Shown: positions 1 through 19,183 of the stretch, piece after piece
Layout: each line of letters starts with the position of its first letter
Numbering within the stretch: the stretch's first letter is position 1
Assembly: GCA_021789495.1 (NCBI GenBank)
Contig: JAJYJM010000020.1
Coordinates: 1-36,228 of the forward strand
DNA: 36,228 nucleotides
From: Nitrospirota bacterium
GTDB taxonomy: Bacteria; Nitrospirota; JACRHJ01
Reading direction: 5' to 3'
The notes under the pieces: model-generated
The model's database searches: none
Seen by the model: only the letters and a program-made list of their open reading frames with translations
Told to the model about the DNA's origin: nothing
Made by a program: the position numbers and the translations under genes

Positions 1-71
1 TATGCGCGTACAAATTGTGAGGTGCATGGCCTTCAGGCGATCCCTGTTGGCCTGCGCGCTTATGCCTGGCT

Positions 72-97
72 TGTCATTCTGAGCGAAGCGAAGAATC
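72..97. repeat. Interspersed repeat, TGTCATTCTGAGCG type
   Basis: The 26 bases read TGTCATTCTGAGCG followed by AAGCGAAGAATC. From general knowledge this word recurs between genes in many unrelated bacterial genomes. It lies in the 165-base stretch upstream of leuA, which contains no convincing gene. Only one copy is in this window, so its status as a repeat rests on family knowledge. Confidence 0.55.
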
Positions 98-114
98 CGC
101 ATGCCATGTATTCA

Positions 115-140
115 AGGGCCGACGCATGGGGCGGCCCCTA
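115..140. repeat. Palindromic GGGCCG/CGGCCC intergenic repeat, copy 1
   Basis: GGGCCG (116-121) can pair with CGGCCC (132-137) around a ten-base loop. The reverse complement, TAGGGGCCGCCCCATGCGTC and on, closely matches the hairpin at 5781-5806. A looser relative is at 14841-14874. The element lies just upstream of the leuA ribosome binding site. Confidence 0.6.
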
Positions 141-165
141 CGATAAAACATATGGAGGCATTTAT

Positions 166-1788
166 ATGTCGCGCATTATAAAAATTTTCGATACTACCTT
201 AAGGGACGGCGAGCAGTCCCCCGGCTGCTCCATGAACATCGACGAGAAGCTGATGGTCGCCCGGCAATTGGCCAGGATGAAGGTGGATATAATCGAAGCG
301 GGGTTCCCAATCGCTTCGGAAGGAGACTTCGAGGCGGTGAAACGCATCGCGCAGGAGGTAAAGGGACCGGTGATATGCGGCCTGGCGCGGACTACGGATA
401 AGGACATAGACCGCGCGGCGGAGGCCATAAAACCGGCAGAACGCGGGAGGATTCATACCTTTCTTGCGACATCGGACATTCACCTGAAATTCAAGCTCAG
501 GAAGGACCGTAGTCAGGTGCTGGACATGGCAGTTGCGGCTGTTAAACGTGCGAGGAAATATACCGACGATGTGGAATTCTCTGCGGAGGACGCCACGCGC
601 TCGGACATCGATTATCTCTGCAAGGTAGTCGAGGCGGCGATATCTGCGGGTGCCGCGACCGTCAACATCCCGGATACGGTAGGTTACGCCATTCCGCAGG
701 AGTACGCGGAACGGATTAAAAATTTATTCGACCGCGTTCCGAACATCGACAAGGCCGTCATATCCGTTCACTGCCATAACGACCTCGGCCTGGCGGTGTC
801 GAACTCTCTGGCGGCAGTGCTATCCGGTGCGGGACAGGTGGAATGCACCATAAACGGCATAGGAGAACGCGCAGGCAACGCGGCGATGGAAGAGATCGTC
901 ATGGCGCTCCGGACGCGCGAGCCTTACTTCGAGGCGCGGACGAATATCGTAACGGAAGAGATTATGGCCGCATCGCGCCTCGTCAGGAACGTAACCGGAA
1001 TGACCGTTCAGGCGAACAAGGCCATTGTAGGCGCGAACGCGTTTGCGCACGAATCCGGCATACACCAGGACGGTTTCCTGAAGGAGAAATCGACTTACGA
1101 AATCATGACGCCGGAATCCGTGGGCATTAAGCAGAGCACGCTTATTTTGGGTAAACATTCTGGCAGGCATGCGCTTAAGGAAAGGTACAAAGAGTTGGGA
1201 TATAAGTTTGTTTCGGACTCCGTGATGATACAGGAAGGTGAGAAGGAGCCGCCAGAAAAAGACGTAAGCAGGGTTCCGTTTTATGTGAAAGAATCCGACT
1301 TTGACAAGATATTCGAGCGATTTAAGAAGCTCGCCGACCAGAAGAAGGACATATTCGACGAAGACCTTGAGGCGCTGGTCGCAGAAGAGGTATTCCGCAT
1401 TCCGCAGGCCTACGAGTTGAAGAAACTTTTTGTGCGGAGTGGGACAGACACAAAACCGCAGGCGGATATTGTCATGGCCGTGTATGGCGCAGAAGAGGAG
1501 AATTCCTCAAGCGGCGACGGGCCTGTGGACGCCGCGCTCAGGACGATAGCGGAGGTTACTAAAACGAAAAGCCGGATGTTCGCATACGAGGTGAAGGCCA
1601 TAACCGGCGGGACGGACGCGCAGGGTGAGGTCGTCGTGCGTCTGCGCGAGGATAATTTCACGGTGATGGGCCAGGGTTCGGACACGGACATAATCGTTGC
1701 CAGCGCAAAGGCATATATTAATGCCCTGAACAAGCTTGAATACCTTAAGAAACGGGGCGAAAAAACGGTTGAAAAGATGTGCGAGTGA
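166..1788 (+). CDS. leuA: 2-isopropylmalate synthase
   Basis: LeuA condenses acetyl-CoA with 2-oxoisovalerate, the first committed step of leucine synthesis in the cytoplasm. The 540-residue protein opens with the family signature [13 protein letters not shown] (residues 8-20), carries the metal-binding [14 protein letters not shown] block (His202, His204) and the GIGERAGNA block, and has a C-terminal regulatory (leucine-feedback type) domain from about residue 400. The frame is open back to base 22, but the ATG at 166 has GGAGG seven bases upstream and matches the family N-terminus, so the upstream 48 codons are rejected. About 26 extra residues (roughly 349-374, rich in Glu and Pro) sit between the catalytic barrel and the linker, making it longer than the usual 510-520. 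It leads leuC-leuD-leuB-asd. Homocitrate or citramalate synthase is less likely, because cimA is separate at 9639. Confidence 0.95.
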
Positions 1789-1830
1789 TGATAATATCAT
1801 CTGCTTAAATATAAGGAGGTTTTCGCTATT

Positions 1831-3093
1831 ATGCCGATGACAATTACCGAAAAAATACTGGCCTTCCACTGCGGCAAGAAAGAGGTGGCGCCTGGAGAAC
1901 TGATAAACGCGAAGGTGGACGTGGTGCTGGCTAACGACATCACCGCGCCCATTTCGATTAAAGAATTCAGAAGGGCCGGGGCGAAGAAGGTATTCGACAA
2001 GACGCGTATCGTTCTCGTGCCGGACCACTTCACGCCGAACAAGGACATCGCCTCCGCCGAGCAGTCGAAGCTCCTGCGGGAGTTCGCAAAAGAGCACGGT
2101 CTGACGAACTACTTCGAGGTGGGCAGGATGGGTATAGAACACGCGCTTCTTCCGGAACAGGGCCTGGCGGTATCGGGCGACGTCATTGTCGGTGCCGACT
2201 CGCACACCTGCACATACGGCGGCCTCGGCGCGTTCGCCACGGGCGTCGGCAGCACGGACGTGGCCGCGGCTATGATAACCGGCGAGATATGGTTCAAGGT
2301 GCCTGAGAGCATAAAATTTGTCTATTACGGCAAGCTCAGGAAATGGGTTTCGGGGAAAGATTTGATACTTCATACCATAGGCGATATCGGTGTTGACGGT
2401 GCGCTCTACAAGGCTATGGAGTTCACGGGCGAGACGATAGATAAAATGGATATGTCCGGCAGGCTTACAATGGCGAATATGGCCATAGAGGCCGGTGGCA
2501 AGAATGGCATTATCGCGCCGGACGACGTTACCAAAGCCTATGAGAGCGGCAGGGCCAAGCGCAGGCCGAAGTTCTATAAATCGGACAGGAAGGCCGTTTA
2601 CGCCGAGGTGCGCGAGTACGATTGCTCTAAACTGGAGCCGCAGGTGGCCTGCCCGCACCTGCCGGAAAATACCAGGGGCGTGAGCGAGCTTTCACATATA
2701 AACATACATCAATCCGTAATCGGTTCCTGTACGAACGGGAGAATCGAGGACCTTCGGATCGCGGCGAAGGTGCTGAAGGGCCGAAAGGTGCATCCGGACG
2801 TGCGGATGATAATTATCCCGGCGACGCAGGCGATATACAAGCAGGCGATGAAAGAGGGCCTGTTCAATATCTTCCTCGATGCACAGGCGGCGGTTTCCAC
2901 GCCCACTTGCGGGCCGTGCCTCGGCGGGCACATGGGCATCCTCGCAAAGGGAGAGCGCTCCATCGCCACGACGAACAGGAACTTCGTCGGGCGCATGGGC
3001 CATCCGGAGTCGGAGGTATATCTCGCAAATCCGGCAATCGCCGCGGCATCGGCGGTATTGGGGCGCATAGGCACCCCGGATGAATTGAAATAG
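1831..3093 (+). CDS. leuC: 3-isopropylmalate dehydratase large subunit
   Basis: LeuC with LeuD isomerises 2-isopropylmalate to 3-isopropylmalate. The 420-residue protein is an aconitase-family [4Fe-4S] enzyme. The three cluster cysteines are visible as Cys300 (GSCTNGR) and Cys360/Cys363 (TCGPC). The substrate-site block [20 protein letters not shown] lies around residues 121-140. At 420 residues it is the short archaeal/anaerobe form rather than the roughly 466-residue E. coli form. The ATG follows AAGGAGG at about 1813-1819. Because cimA is present in the same window, LeuCD probably also processes citramalate toward isoleucine; that is inference from pathway knowledge. Confidence 0.95.
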
Positions 3094-3102
3094 GAGATAT
3101 TT

Positions 3103-3597
3103 ATGAAATTAAAAGGCAATGCCTGGAAGTTCGGCGCGGACATAGACACCGACGCCATAATCCCGGCCCGGTACCTGAATACCTCGGAGCCGTCCGAGCT
3201 TGCGAAGCACTGCATGGAAGACTCGAAGCAGCCCGATTTCATCAAGAAGATGGGCAGGGGCGACATCATCGTTGCCGATAAAAATTTCGGATGCGGCTCC
3301 TCGCGCGAGCACGCGCCCATAGCCATAAAGGCAGCTGGAGTCTCGTGCGTGGTGGCGAAGACGTTCGCCAGGATATTCTATCGCAATTCTTTCAACATGG
3401 GTCTTCCGATATTCGAGTGCCCGGAGGCCGTTGACGGCATATCTCAGGGAGACGCGATAGAGGTGGACGCGGAAAACGGTGTAATAAAAAACCTGACAAC
3501 AAACAGGACGTATCAGGCTGCTCACATCCCGCCGTTCATGCAGGAGCTGATTGCTGCGGGCGGGTTGATGGAGTGGGTTAAGAGAAAGGTCGCGTAG
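3103..3597 (+). CDS. leuD: 3-isopropylmalate dehydratase small subunit
   Basis: This is the swivelling small subunit that partners LeuC. The 164-residue protein has the diagnostic [13 protein letters not shown] block (about residues 11-23), the loop [12 protein letters not shown] that contacts substrate, and [15 protein letters not shown]. Its length fits the short LeuD2-type subunit that pairs with the short LeuC. The start lies nine bases after the leuC stop with a GGAGAT ribosome site overlapping the end of leuC, so the two are translated together. No anomalies were seen. Confidence 0.95.
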
Positions 3598-3610
3598 CAT
3601 CTATAAAGTG

Positions 3611-3633
3611 TAGGGGCGCAATTTATTGTGCCC
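3611..3633. repeat. Palindromic GTAGGGGCGCAAT-type intergenic repeat
   Basis: GGGCGCAAT (3614-3622) pairs with ATTGTGCCC (3625-3633), with one G-U pair and the innermost pairs probably open. The TAGGGGC opening is shared with the hairpins at 5781 and 14841, but the inside of the stem differs. It sits in the 84-base gap between leuD and leuB. There is no T-run after it, so it is not a standard terminator. Confidence 0.55.
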
Positions 3634-3681
3634 GCCAGGGTTTGATAAAACGAGCATATTACCGAAGGGAGAAATCTTCTG

Positions 3682-4746
3682 ATGCCTAAGAATTATAAGA
3701 TTGCGCTCGTTCCCGGAGACGGGACTGGGCCTGAGGTGGTAGCTGAGGCGGTAAAGGTAGTTAAGTCCGCAGCGAAACGTGCGGGTTTCGGTTTATCGTT
3801 CAAGACATTCGATTTCGGCGGGGAGCGCTACAAAAAGACGGGTGAGACGCTATCCGACAAGGATGTCGATACGCTCCGGGATTATGATGCCATACTTCTT
3901 GGCGCTATAGGCCATCCGGACGTTGCGCCTGGAATCCTTGAGAAGGGGATACTGCTGAAGATGCGGTTCGCGCTCGACCTCTATGTTAACCTCCGGCCCG
4001 TGAAGCTCCTGCCCGGCGTGGAAACGCCGCTCAAGGACAAGGGCCCGAAAGAGATAAACTACGTGGTTGTCCGCGAAAATACCGAGGGCCTTTATGCCGG
4101 CGCAGGCGGAGTATTAAAGAAAGGCACGCCGGACGAGGTCGCCGTGCAGGAATCGATAAATACCAGAAAGGGTGTTGAGCGTTGCATCAGGTACGCATTC
4201 GATTACGCAAAGAAGACCGGCAGGAAAAAGGTCACGCTCTGCGGCAAGACGAACGTTCTGACGTTCGCGTTCGATCTCTGGGAGCGCGCGTTCTATGAAG
4301 TCGCCAAGGAATATCCGAAGATAAAGGCCGATTACGCGCACGTGGACGCGACGACGATGTGGATGGTGAAGAACCCGGAATGGTTCGATGTCATCGTTAC
4401 GGACAACATGTTCGGGGACATAATAACCGATCTCGGCGCGATGACGCAGGGCGGAATGGGCATTGCCGCCGGCGGCAACATAAATCCCAGGGGCGTCTCG
4501 ATGTTCGAGCCGATAGGCGGCTCCGCTCCGAAATATACCGGCATGAACATTATCAATCCGCTCGCTGCGATATGCGCCGCACAGATGATGCTCGAACATT
4601 TGGGCGAGACAAGAGCTGCCGGCTGGATAGAAAAATCCGTTGTAAAGGCCATCTCGAAGATGGACAGCCTCGCCGCCGGAAAGATGGGCATGGGCACGAG
4701 CGAGGTCGGGAGCATGGTGGCGAAATTTGTCAAGGAGTCCGATTAA
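3682..4746 (+). CDS. leuB: 3-isopropylmalate dehydrogenase
   Basis: LeuB oxidatively decarboxylates 3-isopropylmalate with NAD+. The 354-residue protein shows the beta-decarboxylating dehydrogenase pattern: VPGDGTGPEVV at the N-terminus, the substrate arginines in LDLYVNLRPVK, RENTEGLYAG, the Mg2+ aspartates in VTDNMFGDIITDLGA, and GSAPKYTGMNIINP in the nucleotide site. The AAGGGAG ribosome site is about ten bases before the ATG. Its stop codon overlaps the asd start in TAATG. The close relatives isocitrate and tartrate dehydrogenase are less likely given the leu operon. Confidence 0.93.
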   Translation: MPKNYKIALVPGDGTGPEVVAEAVKVVKSAAKRAGFGLSFKTFDFGGERYKKTGETLSDKDVDTLRDYDAILLGAIGHPDVAPGILEKGILLKMRFALDLYVNLRPVKLLPGVETPLKDKGPKEINYVVVRENTEGLYAGAGGVLKKGTPDEVAVQESINTRKGVERCIRYAFDYAKKTGRKKVTLCGKTNVLTFAFDLWERAFYEVAKEYPKIKADYAHVDATTMWMVKNPEWFDVIVTDNMFGDIITDLGAMTQGGMGIAAGGNINPRGVSMFEPIGGSAPKYTGMNIINPLAAICAAQMMLEHLGETRAAGWIEKSVVKAISKMDSLAAGKMGMGTSEVGSMVAKFVKESD

Positions 4747-5759
4747 TGTTTAAGAAGATGGATAAGTATGTCGTTGCGGTTGTGGGGGCTACCGGCGCGG
4801 TCGGCGTGGAGATGGTCTCCACGCTTGAGGAGAGGAATTTCCCCTTAGCCGAGCTGAAGCTTTACGCCTCTGAGAAGTCCGAGGGGAAGAAGGTCGAGTT
4901 CAAAGGGAACGAACTTACTGTCCATAAACTGGATAACAACTCCTTCAAGGGCGTGGACATTGCACTCTTCTCGGCAGGCGCTTCGAGGAGTCTTGAGTTC
5001 GCGCCCATCGCCGCCGCGGACGGCTGCATCGTTATAGACAACTCCAGCGCGTGGAGGATGGACCCGGACGTGCCGCTCGTTGTTCCGGAGGTGAATGCGC
5101 ACCATCTGAAGTCCATACCGAAAGGCATAATCGCAAACCCGAACTGCTCCACGATACAGATGCTCGTTGCCCTGAAGCCCCTGCACGAGGCGGCGACAAT
5201 TAAGCGCATTGTGGTTACCACCTTCCAGTCCGTCTCCGGCACGGGCAAGAAGGCTATGGACGAGCTGATGGACCAGACTGCAGCGCTCCTAAGCTTCAGG
5301 CCCGTGCAGAAGAAGGTCTATCCGCACCAGATAGCCTTCAATGTTCTGCCGCATATCGACTCCTTCCTGGAGAACGGCTATACAAAGGAAGAGATGAAGA
5401 TGGTCAACGAGACACACAAGATGCTCGACCCGAACATCAGGGTAACGGCGACCACCGTGCGTGTCCCGGTTTTCAGGAGCCACTCGGAATCGGTGAACAT
5501 CGAGACGGAGAAGAAGCTCACTGCGAACGAGGCGCGGGCAATTCTCTCCACCGCTCCCGGTGTCATCGTCATGGACGACCCGTCCAGGAACATCTACCCG
5601 CTCGCGCTGGACGCCATGGGGCATGACGCGACGTACGTGGGCCGCATCCGCGAGGACGAGTCCATCGATAACGGACTGAACATCTGGGTCGTTTCTGATA
5701 ACCTGAGGAAAGGCGCGGCGCTTAACGCGGTGCAGATAGCGGAAGAGCTGATAAAATAA
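4746..5759 (+). CDS. asd: Aspartate-semialdehyde dehydrogenase
   Basis: Asd reduces aspartyl phosphate to aspartate semialdehyde, the branch point to lysine/diaminopimelate, threonine and methionine. The 337-residue protein has the NADP-binding GATGAVG (residues 14-20), the catalytic Cys134 in NPNCSTIQML, and the later FNVLPHID and VRVPVFRSHSE blocks that include active-site His/Arg residues. The chosen ATG overlaps the leuB stop by one base; an alternative ATG lies at 4758. The long upstream extension of this frame runs inside leuB and is rejected. leuB-asd coupling ties branched-chain and aspartate-family synthesis together. Confidence 0.94.
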   Translation: MFKKMDKYVVAVVGATGAVGVEMVSTLEERNFPLAELKLYASEKSEGKKVEFKGNELTVHKLDNNSFKGVDIALFSAGASRSLEFAPIAAADGCIVIDNSSAWRMDPDVPLVVPEVNAHHLKSIPKGIIANPNCSTIQMLVALKPLHEAATIKRIVVTTFQSVSGTGKKAMDELMDQTAALLSFRPVQKKVYPHQIAFNVLPHIDSFLENGYTKEEMKMVNETHKMLDPNIRVTATTVRVPVFRSHSESVNIETEKKLTANEARAILSTAPGVIVMDDPSRNIYPLALDAMGHDATYVGRIREDESIDNGLNIWVVSDNLRKGAALNAVQIAEELIK

Positions 5760-9256: not shown

Positions 9257-9359
9257 TTTTGCAGGTGTCCGTATAGAAATAGCTAAATTAATTTAGGCAT
9301 GTTATTGCATCTGTTCAATCCCGGCCTTCGCTTTTTTTGAGTTTTTTCCGGTATTCTTC

Positions 9360-9387
9360 TTGACAAAAATAAAATTTATTGTATTAT
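9360..9387 (+). promoter_or_regulatory. Promoter of the structured RNA
   Basis: A consensus TTGACA (9360-9365), a 16-base spacer and TATTAT (9382-9387) predict a transcript start near 9394, directly before the outer stem of the RNA element. Confidence 0.65.
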
Positions 9388-9393
9388 TGAGGG

Positions 9394-9535
9394 TATAGTA
9401 AATCCGTTGACTCCCGGATTCCGGGAGACGCAGCTTCCGGGCCACTTAAGCAGGCGATTCCCCTCCCCTGCGGCCTCAGTTTTGCCTTCCCCCGGCATGG
9501 CCGAAGTAAGCCCGGAGGCTGCGAAAACGGATCTC
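9394..9535 (+). ncRNA. Unassigned structured RNA (small RNA or cimA leader)
   Basis: The bases show a nested, branched fold. ATCCGTT (9402-9408) pairs with AACGGAT (9526-9532) and closes a three-way junction. One arm is the hairpin CTCCCGG-ATT-CCGGGAG (9411-9427). The other is a 14-bp helix, 9429-9442 with 9510-9523, which has a single G-U pair. Inside it lie ACTT/AAGT, a GCAGG/CCTGC hairpin (9450-9471) and a CGGCC/GGCCG stem (9471-9475 with 9499-9503; base 9471 is shared) capped by TGCC/GGCA. The apical loops are C-rich (CCCCTCC, TTCCCCC), a pattern known from small RNAs that block Shine-Dalgarno sites. I cannot match it to T-box, 6S, SRP or any riboswitch I know. There is no T-run at its 3' end, so it may run on into cimA as a leader. 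Confidence 0.6.
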
Positions 9536-9574
9536 CCCCATAGCCTCAAATCCCCGAAAATCCCAAAAAAAAGT

Positions 9575-9611
9575 TTGAATTTTTAATGGGTTAATGTTAT
9601 ATTCATTAACC
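9575..9611 (+). promoter_or_regulatory. cimA promoter with an overlapping palindromic operator
   Basis: TTGAAT (9575-9580), a 17-base spacer and TATATT (9598-9603) form a promoter. A perfect inverted repeat, GGTTAATG (9589-9596) and CATTAACC (9604-9611), frames the -10 box, so a dimeric repressor bound there would block transcription. No T-run follows, which argues against a terminator. The cimA ribosome site is GAGG at 9628-9631. Confidence 0.55.
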
Positions 9612-9638
9612 TGTTATCCTAATTTTCGAGGTTTTTTG

Positions 9639-11204
9639 ATGGTAAAAATATACGATACTACCCTGAGGGACGGGGCGCAGTCGGAAGATGTGGCCTTCTC
9701 GCTTGAGGATATGGTCCGGGTGACCCTCAAGCTCGATGAACTGGGCGTCCATTACATCGAGGGCGGCTGGCCCGGCTCCAATCCCAAGGACGCCGCATAT
9801 TTTGATAAAATCAAAGGATACAGGCTTGCTACGGCTAAAACCGCCGCATTCGGGAGTACCCGGCGCGCCGGGGTAAGGGCAGACGAAGACCAGAACCTCC
9901 TATCGCTCGTGAAAGCCGGCACGCCCGTGGTTACGATATTCGGGAAAAGCTGGAACCTGCATGTCCGGGAGGCGCTCAAGGTCTCTCTGGACGAAAACCT
10001 CGACATGATACATAGTTCGGTGTCGTTTCTAAAGGCAAACGTGCCGGAGGTTTTTTACGATGCGGAGCATTTCTTCGACGGCTACAAGTCCAACCCGGCT
10101 TATGCCGTAAAGACATTGAAGGCCGCCCGCGACGCCGGGGCCGACTGCCTGGTCCTTTGCGATACGAACGGCGGCACGCTCACATGGGATATAGAGAGGA
10201 TGGTAACCGAGGTAAAGGAGAAGTTATCCGCCCCGCTCGGCATACACTGCCACAACGACTCCGAGCTTGCCGTGGCCAATTCTCTCGCGGCGATAAATCT
10301 CGGCGCAGAACAGGTTCAGGGGACGATTAACGGCTACGGGGAGCGGTGCGGGAACGCCAATTTATGCTCGATTATCCCTGCTGTTCAGCTGAAGATGGGC
10401 CTGGAAGGTATACCCAATGACAGGCTTGCGAAGCTCAGGGAAATCTCCCGTTTTGTCGCGGAGATAGCCAATCTCAGGCCATACAAGCACCAGCCGTATG
10501 TCGGGAATTCCGCCTTCGCGCACAAGGCGGGGATGCACGTAAACGCCGTCCTGAAGGCGCGCGAGACCTACGAGCACACAAGGCCGGAGGCGGTGGGCAA
10601 CGTCCAGCGCATACTCGTCTCCGACCTTGCAGGCAAGAGCAATATCATCCGTAAGGCGTCCGAGTATGGCATAGACCTCACGCACAATACGCCGGAGGTG
10701 AAGAACATCCTCCATACGCTCAAGGACATGGAGAACCAGGGCTACCAGTACGAGGGCGCGGAGGCGTCTTTCGAGCTGCTTGTCAAAAAGGCCACGGGCA
10801 GACACAAGAAGTTCTTTGAGCTTGAGGGCTACCGCGTAATCGTCGAGTGGTACGAGGCGAAGCGCGAGACGGTCTCCGAGGCGACCATCCGCGTCTGGGT
10901 AGGGCAGGACAAGTTCGAGTATACCGCCGCGATGGGCAACGGCCCGGTGAACGCGCTCGACAACGCCCTCAGAAAAGCCGTCCTGAAGCACTTCCCGGAG
11001 CTTTCCGGCGTGAGGCTCCTGGATTATAAAGTCCGCGTCCTGAGCGCCGGCGAAGGGACGACGGCGAAGGTGCGCGTCCTTATCGAGTCCGGCGACGATA
11101 CCGGCAAATGGGGCACCGTCGGCGTCTCCGAGAACGTCATCGAGGCCTCCTGGGAGGCCCTGGTTGACAGTATCGAGTACAGGCTGCTGAAAGAAGAGAC
11201 TTAA
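9639..11204 (+). CDS. cimA: (R)-citramalate synthase
   Basis: CimA condenses acetyl-CoA with pyruvate to citramalate, starting the threonine-independent route to isoleucine; LeuCD and LeuB complete the chain extension. The 521-residue protein begins [21 protein letters not shown], the form typical of the CimA/TIGR00977 branch rather than true LeuA. It carries [13 protein letters not shown] (metal His pair) and [12 protein letters not shown], and ends in a LeuA-type allosteric domain from about residue 390. The ATG at 9639 is preferred over 9594 because it starts the homology and has GAGG upstream. It overlaps rseC by one base. Control is probably exerted at the palindrome upstream and perhaps by the structured RNA. 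Confidence 0.92.
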
Positions 11205-11635: not shown

Positions 11636-11649
11636 TACAAAAGAAGACC

Positions 11650-11729
11650 GTCACCCCCGTGAAAACGGGGGCCCAGCTACTTTTCTTTTAAATCCAAAGT
11701 CACTGGGTTCCCGCTTTCGCGGGAATGAC
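11650..11729. repeat. Inverted pair of 27-bp GTCATTCCCGCGAAAGCGGG-type repeats
   Basis: Copy A (11650-11676, GTCACCCCCGTGAAAACGGG...) and copy B (11703-11729, read on the minus strand as GTCATTCCCGCGAAAGCGGG...) face each other around a 26-base AT-rich spacer. Each is itself a hairpin. A third copy lies at 20261-20287. The CCCGCNNNNGCGGG core resembles widespread REP/dRS3-like elements, and the doublet arrangement resembles a BIME. It fills the rseC-EF-G gap. Confidence 0.75.
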
Positions 11730-11757
11730 AAAATAATCGCTTATCTCAGGAGGCCAC

Positions 11758-18878: not shown

Positions 18879-18917
18879 CCGGTTTTGCTTGACAACCGGT
18901 TAAATTCTATGTATCTT
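18877..18917 (+). promoter_or_regulatory. Promoter of the cob operon with twin AACCGGTT palindromes
   Basis: TTGACA (18889-18894), a 17-base spacer and TATCTT (18912-18917) form a promoter. Two copies of the palindrome AACCGGTT (18877-18884 and 18894-18901), 17 bases apart centre to centre, lie on each side of the -35 box; the first overlaps the desulforedoxin stop. They could be sites for a regulator that works in addition to the riboswitch. Confidence 0.6.
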
Positions 18918-18920
18918 GAG

Positions 18921-19107
18921 TCGGGGCGGTAAGCAGAGTTCGCCCCGATGTCCATAAAATCCCAGGGAAGACGGTAAAAGCCGTCACTGCCCCGCAACTG
19001 TAAGCGGCGAGCCTGTCCCGGATGCCACTGTCCTATATGGATGGGAAGGCGGGCATAGGCGACGACCCGCGAGTCAGGATACCTGGTCGATATAACCTGT
19101 TACTTCC
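18921..19107 (+). ncRNA. Cobalamin riboswitch
   Basis: The leader holds the adenosylcobalamin aptamer. Recognisable blocks are GGGAAGACGGT-AAAA-GCCGTC, ACTGCCCCGCAACTGTAAGC (the B12 box region), GCCACTG, GGGAAGGCGGGC, GACCCGCGAGTCAGGATACC and then CTG. An 8-bp hairpin (18921-18928 with 18941-18948) opens the RNA. A possible alternative stem, TTACTTCC with GGAGGTAA (19100-19120), lies between the aptamer and the terminator. The downstream genes are cobalamin genes, as expected. Confidence 0.95.
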
Positions 19108-19172: not shown

Positions 19173-19183
19173 GGGGGGGGGGG
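19173..19183. repeat. Run of eleven G
   Basis: An uninterrupted G11 tract lies between the riboswitch terminator and the cobO ATG. Such tracts slip during replication and are also a common place for assembly errors. It is too far from the ATG (14 bases) to be an ideal ribosome site. Confidence 0.9.

Follow-up and report, generated by a model that had tools for sequence, protein, structure and literature searches.

A conserved, apparently noncoding structured RNA upstream of the citramalate synthase gene in a genus of uncultured Nitrospirota

Does the DNA ahead of cimA in an uncultured member of the Nitrospirota encode a small RNA (sRNA) in its own right, or is it the 5' leader of a gene of isoleucine synthesis? 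The window, i.e., the whole stretch of 36,228 nucleotides that was analyzed, is contig 13 of a 2.08-Mb genome, the nearest named relatives of which are uncultured Nitrospirae metagenome-assembled genomes (isolates WY2.bin87, DBS2-1.bin100, and DBS1-3.bin157). The initial annotation proposed either a new sRNA or a ligand-sensing leader. The part common to both proposals stands: the feature is real, conserved, structured, apparently noncoding, and absent from Rfam. The choice between the two is not settled, and the evidence favors the sRNA. In either case, the locus is a well-bounded candidate RNA gene of uncultured Nitrospirota that is not contained in Rfam 15. The features discussed are compiled in Table 1. 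The cluster leuA-leuC-leuD-leuB-asd (window positions 22-5759) is located near cimA, and much of leucine synthesis and of isoleucine synthesis by the citramalate route is thus grouped in this window.

Table 1. Positions of the RNA, its predicted structural elements, and the adjoining features in the window
Feature	Position	Strand	Description
Promoter P1 of the RNA, predicted	9360..9387	+	Sigma-70, 11/12 consensus; -35 TTGACA (9360-9365), 16-nt spacer, -10 TATTAT (9382-9387)
Structured RNA, ~140 nt	9394..9535	+	z -5.7; predicted to start near 9394 and to end with the closing stem or shortly behind it
Closing stem, 7 bp	5' arm 9402..9408, 3' arm 9526..9532	+	MFE; 97% of cells paired, five species
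Hairpin CTCCCGG-ATT-CCGGGAG, 7 bp	9411..9427	+	MFE
14-bp helix	5' arm 9429..9442, 3' arm 9510..9523	+	MFE; 100% of cells paired, five species
Inner hairpin 1	9450..9471	+	MFE; stem GCAGG/CCTGC, C-rich loop CGATTCCCCTCC (9455-9466)
Inner hairpin 2	9472..9502	+	MFE; stem GGCC/GGCC and TGCC/GGCA, loop TTCCCCC (9487-9493)
Spacer	9533..9560	+	Variable, C-rich, G-poor; mean identity 0.52 at 9532-9551
Putative cimA promoter P2	9575..9603	+	TTGAAT-17-TATATT, extended -10 (TG before); hexamers invariant in 5/5
cimA	9639..11204	+	(R)-Citramalate synthase (isoleucine by the citramalate route); TIGR00977, 769 bits versus a cutoff of 450

Fold and conservation of the RNA

A consensus promoter leading into a branched fold with a closing stem, a side hairpin, a long helix, and two inner hairpins had been described from the sequence, and both the promoter and the fold were borne out. 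Both hexamers of P1 are retained in all five members of the genus, with a spacer of 17 nt in G001. The minimum free energy (MFE) structure of the RNA is identical to the centroid and contains every element that had been named. Its energy is -69.3 kcal/mol, compared with a mean of -45.8 kcal/mol for shuffled sequences, and 0 of 200 shuffles were as stable; the z-scores of the five homologues range from -5.2 to -6.2. A scan of 510 control stretches of the window, with 16 shuffles each and a 142-nt grid by which the RNA element is split in two, gave a z below -5 only for one REP-like inverted repeat, at 11645, on both of its strands. This repeat (paired inverted copies CACCCCCGTGAAAACGGGGG ... 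CCCGCTTTCGCGGG, window 11645-11740, flanked by an RseC-like and a 697-aa EF-G-like gene) was the strongest fold of the scan, with a z of -8.9 (16 shuffles) or of -5.1 (200 shuffles, slightly different ends).

A DNA search of 99 relatives retrieved the RNA from each of the five genus members but from none of the 94 others, which included the sister genus G005. It is present in a single copy per genome and is located upstream of, and co-oriented with, cimA in each of the five, with about 107 nt between it and the start of cimA. A covariance model built from the five sequences scored them at 152 to 160 bits and gave no credible match in 241 other Nitrospirota genomes, an incomplete sample of the phylum that included the sister genus. 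A 22-bit match in G192 was rejected as a homologue, since it falls within an ORF of 420 aa. Direct reading of the 1.2 kb upstream of cimA in G005 revealed no match to the model. The phage sequences searched contained no match to the RNA, the plasmids searched gave only weak matches (E 0.6) to the AT-rich promoter stretch, and the exact RNA core was not found in viral contigs.

In the global alignment of the five genomes, identity is at chance level (0.3 to 0.5) upstream of 9352, climbs to 0.72 to 0.95 over P1 and the RNA, drops with indels in the spacer, and climbs again just ahead of cimA. Pairwise identity amounts to 85 to 96% for the RNA, whereas the four-fold degenerate cimA sites of these genomes reach 57 to 78%; this difference indicates purifying selection on the RNA. 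Variation avoids the predicted helices: of the 26 variable columns, 7 are among the 82 paired and 19 among the 55 unpaired columns. In the 14-bp helix, three positions vary, and each change remains paired via G-U. The only pair with changes in both partners is the apical pair of the hairpin at 9411-9427 (GC/AU/GU), which is mispaired in two species; the loop of this hairpin contains a 1-nt insertion in G004. The covariation test on the five sequences accordingly yielded a single two-sided pair, and 190 of 500 shuffles did as well. The near lack of covariation is due to the high similarity of the five sequences. The stems of both inner hairpins show no variation across the five species. RNAalifold pairs this region otherwise in its consensus, with hairpin 2 drawn differently, and the arrangement of the inner hairpins is thus less certain and model dependent.

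The initial annotation also suggested that the C-rich loops could pair with Shine-Dalgarno (SD) sequences. The part of this proposal that concerns the loops agrees with the comparison: the two C-rich loops vary at 2 of 19 columns, whereas the remaining unpaired columns vary at 17 of 36, and the loop cores are invariant. They are included in two invariant runs, TTCCCCTCCCCTGCGGCCT (9458-9476), which holds CCUCC, the core complement of the SD site, and TTTTGCCTTCCCCCGGCATGGCCGAA, in the region of inner hairpin 2 (9480-9505, invariant in 5/5). Together, the runs comprise 45 columns, for which the hypergeometric probability under random placement is 8e-6, a value that overstates the case since the runs were chosen after the data had been seen. 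As for targets, no perfect loop complement was seen to recur at the same start codon among the stretches read.

Small RNA or leader of cimA

With moderate confidence, we consider the feature a genus-restricted, free-standing regulatory sRNA with UCCC/CCUCC loops that would pair with G-rich ribosome-binding sites. This reading is favored because the block of conserved sequence does not extend past the closing stem, a variable spacer follows, and cimA has an apparent promoter of its own. P1 and the RNA form one conserved block that is preceded by random-like sequence, and this block has been kept despite three different upstream contexts, namely, tRNA-Asp in the window, tRNA-Leu in G002, and a radical-SAM protein in G001 and G003; G004 carries the tRNA-Leu-side sequence as in G002, beside an assembly gap. 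Two marks of C-rich-loop sRNAs are found here: a promoter of its own, as P1 appears to be from its sequence, and conserved UCCC/CCUCC motifs in loops that are predicted to be exposed. On the other hand, the RNA adjoins cimA in all five genomes, and no intrinsic terminator (stem and T-run) was found directly after 9532. The spacer may possibly serve as a zone of Rho-dependent termination.

The sRNA would operate as follows. (i) An RNA of roughly 140 nt would be transcribed from P1, its 3' end lying at or slightly beyond the closing stem and being made by Rho-dependent termination or processing. (ii) The loops UUCCCCUCC and UUCCCCC would base-pair with mRNAs encoded elsewhere, at their G-rich ribosome-binding sites, which is plausible by analogy with known sRNAs, and this pairing would block translation or alter mRNA stability. 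(iii) Hfq, which is encoded by the genus, may take part. (iv) cimA would be a mere downstream neighbor that is transcribed from P2. Apart from the ordinary hfq gene, a tandem pair of Hfq-like domains is found at G000:C7:31885-32288, G002:C2:131624-132027, and G003:C37:1584-1965, and such tandem domains occur in several members of the family.

Perfect complements of 11 to 12 nt to the loops (GGGGRGGGGRR and GGGGGRRGGYRR) were searched in the five genomes, and in the stretches read, none recurred at the same start codon; the seeds of sRNAs are usually shorter than these complements. The sites are scattered, and many are found in dispersed, paired G/C-rich repeats. Dispersed G/C-rich palindromic repeats of the TACCCTCCCCACTCGTGGGGGAGGGTGG type are present in the genus at L180:1520-1560, L181:1440-1475, L182:3060-3100, and other loci; one copy of this type in L182 is located just upstream of an ATG, and the product of that gene looks like a P-II protein (GlnB/GlnK).

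The main competing explanation, which we regard as a serious though less probable one, is that the RNA is a cis-acting 5' leader, either riboswitch-like or protein binding, and that, in transcripts initiated at P1, it regulates isoleucine synthesis. Its constant place directly upstream of cimA and in the same orientation, even though the upstream gene varies, is what a leader would show. The invariant internal sequence would be in keeping with an aptamer, no intrinsic terminator separates the RNA from cimA, and the leucine cluster is close by in the genome. However, the sister genus possesses cimA without the RNA, the spacer to cimA is variable, and no expression platform conserved together with an aptamer, as expected of a riboswitch or attenuator, was found in the five genomes. 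Two candidate platforms were inspected. (i) In the predicted folds of long transcripts, the cimA SD is paired in most species, which speaks for a leader, but its partners are located in the upstream spacer in G000 and G001 and in the coding sequence in G002 and G004. Since the SD pairs with different partners in different species, no shared switch was found, and conserved SD sequestration was rejected. (ii) An AU hairpin at 9584-9616, which is followed by a T-containing stretch, was flagged as terminator-like, but it overlaps the conserved promoter P2; with three GC pairs only, no two-sided changes, and a stem that is broken in several species, it was rejected as an attenuator. The same segment is an imperfect palindrome, GGTTAATG-TTATATT-CATTAACC, that is centred on the putative -10 box of cimA and has a right half that decays in sister species; it is a possible repressor operator for cimA. 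P2, judged from its sequence, appears to supply cimA with a short leader of its own.

A more specific form of the leader explanation holds that the RNA represents a new ligand- or protein-sensing class for the citramalate route to isoleucine, restricted so far to this genus, with the invariant C-rich hairpins as the binding site. This we think unlikely. We know of no metabolite-sensing RNA that had been tied to citramalate synthase, and if the RNA does sense a metabolite, it would to our knowledge be the first one.

It is also improbable, in our estimate, that both roles are combined, such that a terminated or processed leader fragment acts in trans as well. The loops look adapted to pairing, and in the absence of an obvious terminator between P1 and cimA some read-through from P1 into cimA is to be expected; nevertheless, nothing tested sets this combination apart from either the sRNA or the leader.

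Strand, coding potential, and known RNA families

We consider it very unlikely that the element acts as DNA or on the minus strand, for example, as a repeat-type palindrome or as an RNA with GGA loops that binds CsrA. The minus strand folds well too (z -4.4 to -5.9), and REP-like palindromes are common here, but the element is single copy in each genome, the conserved P1 has plus-strand orientation, and near the element no promoter was flagged on the minus strand. The plus strand is further favored by the three changes in the 14-bp helix, which pair as G-U there and are A-C mismatches on the minus strand.

A short protein-coding gene was rejected. The reading frame is broken by single-base indels in G002 and G004, which are located in loops or junctions, open frames are interrupted, and changes occur at first and second codon positions; a small protein is therefore unlikely.

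That a known housekeeping RNA was overlooked, or that the fold arose by chance, is an explanation to which we give almost no weight, and within the tests made it is already refuted: over the region 9300-9660, Rfam 15, including the T-box, riboswitch, SRP, RNase P, tmRNA, and 6S models, gave no match at gathering scores, in agreement with the initial annotation, and conservation together with the z-scores makes a chance fold very unlikely. Even at lax E-values, the best match in this region, on the opposite strand, reached 18.1 bits, where the gathering score is 83. An identity with 6S RNA was rejected because the RNA fails the RF00013 model and the 6S RNA of this genome is encoded on another contig (G000:C8:7978-8156, 93.5 bits); a separate 6S gene is present in the genus, at 93 to 99 bits. 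A cobalamin riboswitch (97 bits) is located elsewhere in the window, at 18901-19104, ahead of a cobalamin synthesis cluster, and it is followed by a run of 11 Gs at 19173-19183, close to where the next gene begins.

Comparison with known regulatory RNAs

Lineage-restricted regulatory RNAs that carry C-rich loops, the kind to which we assign the feature, are already known. A number of likenesses and differences can be derived. (i) 6S RNA (RF00013) is of a similar length class and has stable long helices, but the RNA described here does not match its model. (ii) The sRNA RepG of Helicobacter pylori targets a G-repeat within the leader of an mRNA (PMC8295292). The likeness would lie in this mode of action; organism and sequence are unrelated, and RepG has a defined target. 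(iii) Yfr1 and Yfr2 of cyanobacteria are lineage-conserved sRNAs known by their conserved motifs (PMC6778093). The RNA of this study resembles them in being lineage conserved and recognized by its motifs; Yfr1 and Yfr2 differ in sequence and architecture and span a whole phylum, in contrast to the single genus here. (iv) PmaR of Agrobacterium tumefaciens binds its targets through a C-rich loop on a long stem (PMC6234868), and the RNA upstream of cimA likewise has a long stem that would present C-rich loops. PmaR, however, is alphaproteobacterial and forms one spoon-like hairpin, as opposed to two inner hairpins and a side hairpin, and most PmaR targets are activated and are not contacted at the SD. 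(v) A parallel in loop motifs is offered by sRNAs of the Firmicutes with C-rich regions, RsaE/RoxS, LhrC, FsrA, and SprD, whose UCCC-type loop motifs bind SD regions (PMC4132741, PMC4409812). The loops described here carry motifs of the same type, suited to a G-rich SD. Unlike these sRNAs, the RNA belongs to another phylum, has no sequence relation to them that Rfam detects, lacks an intrinsic terminator, and is larger, with a branched, GC-rich fold, and its pairing with targets is a proposal. If its loops do bind ribosome-binding sites, the C-rich-loop design, which is known mainly from the Firmicutes, reaches another phylum.
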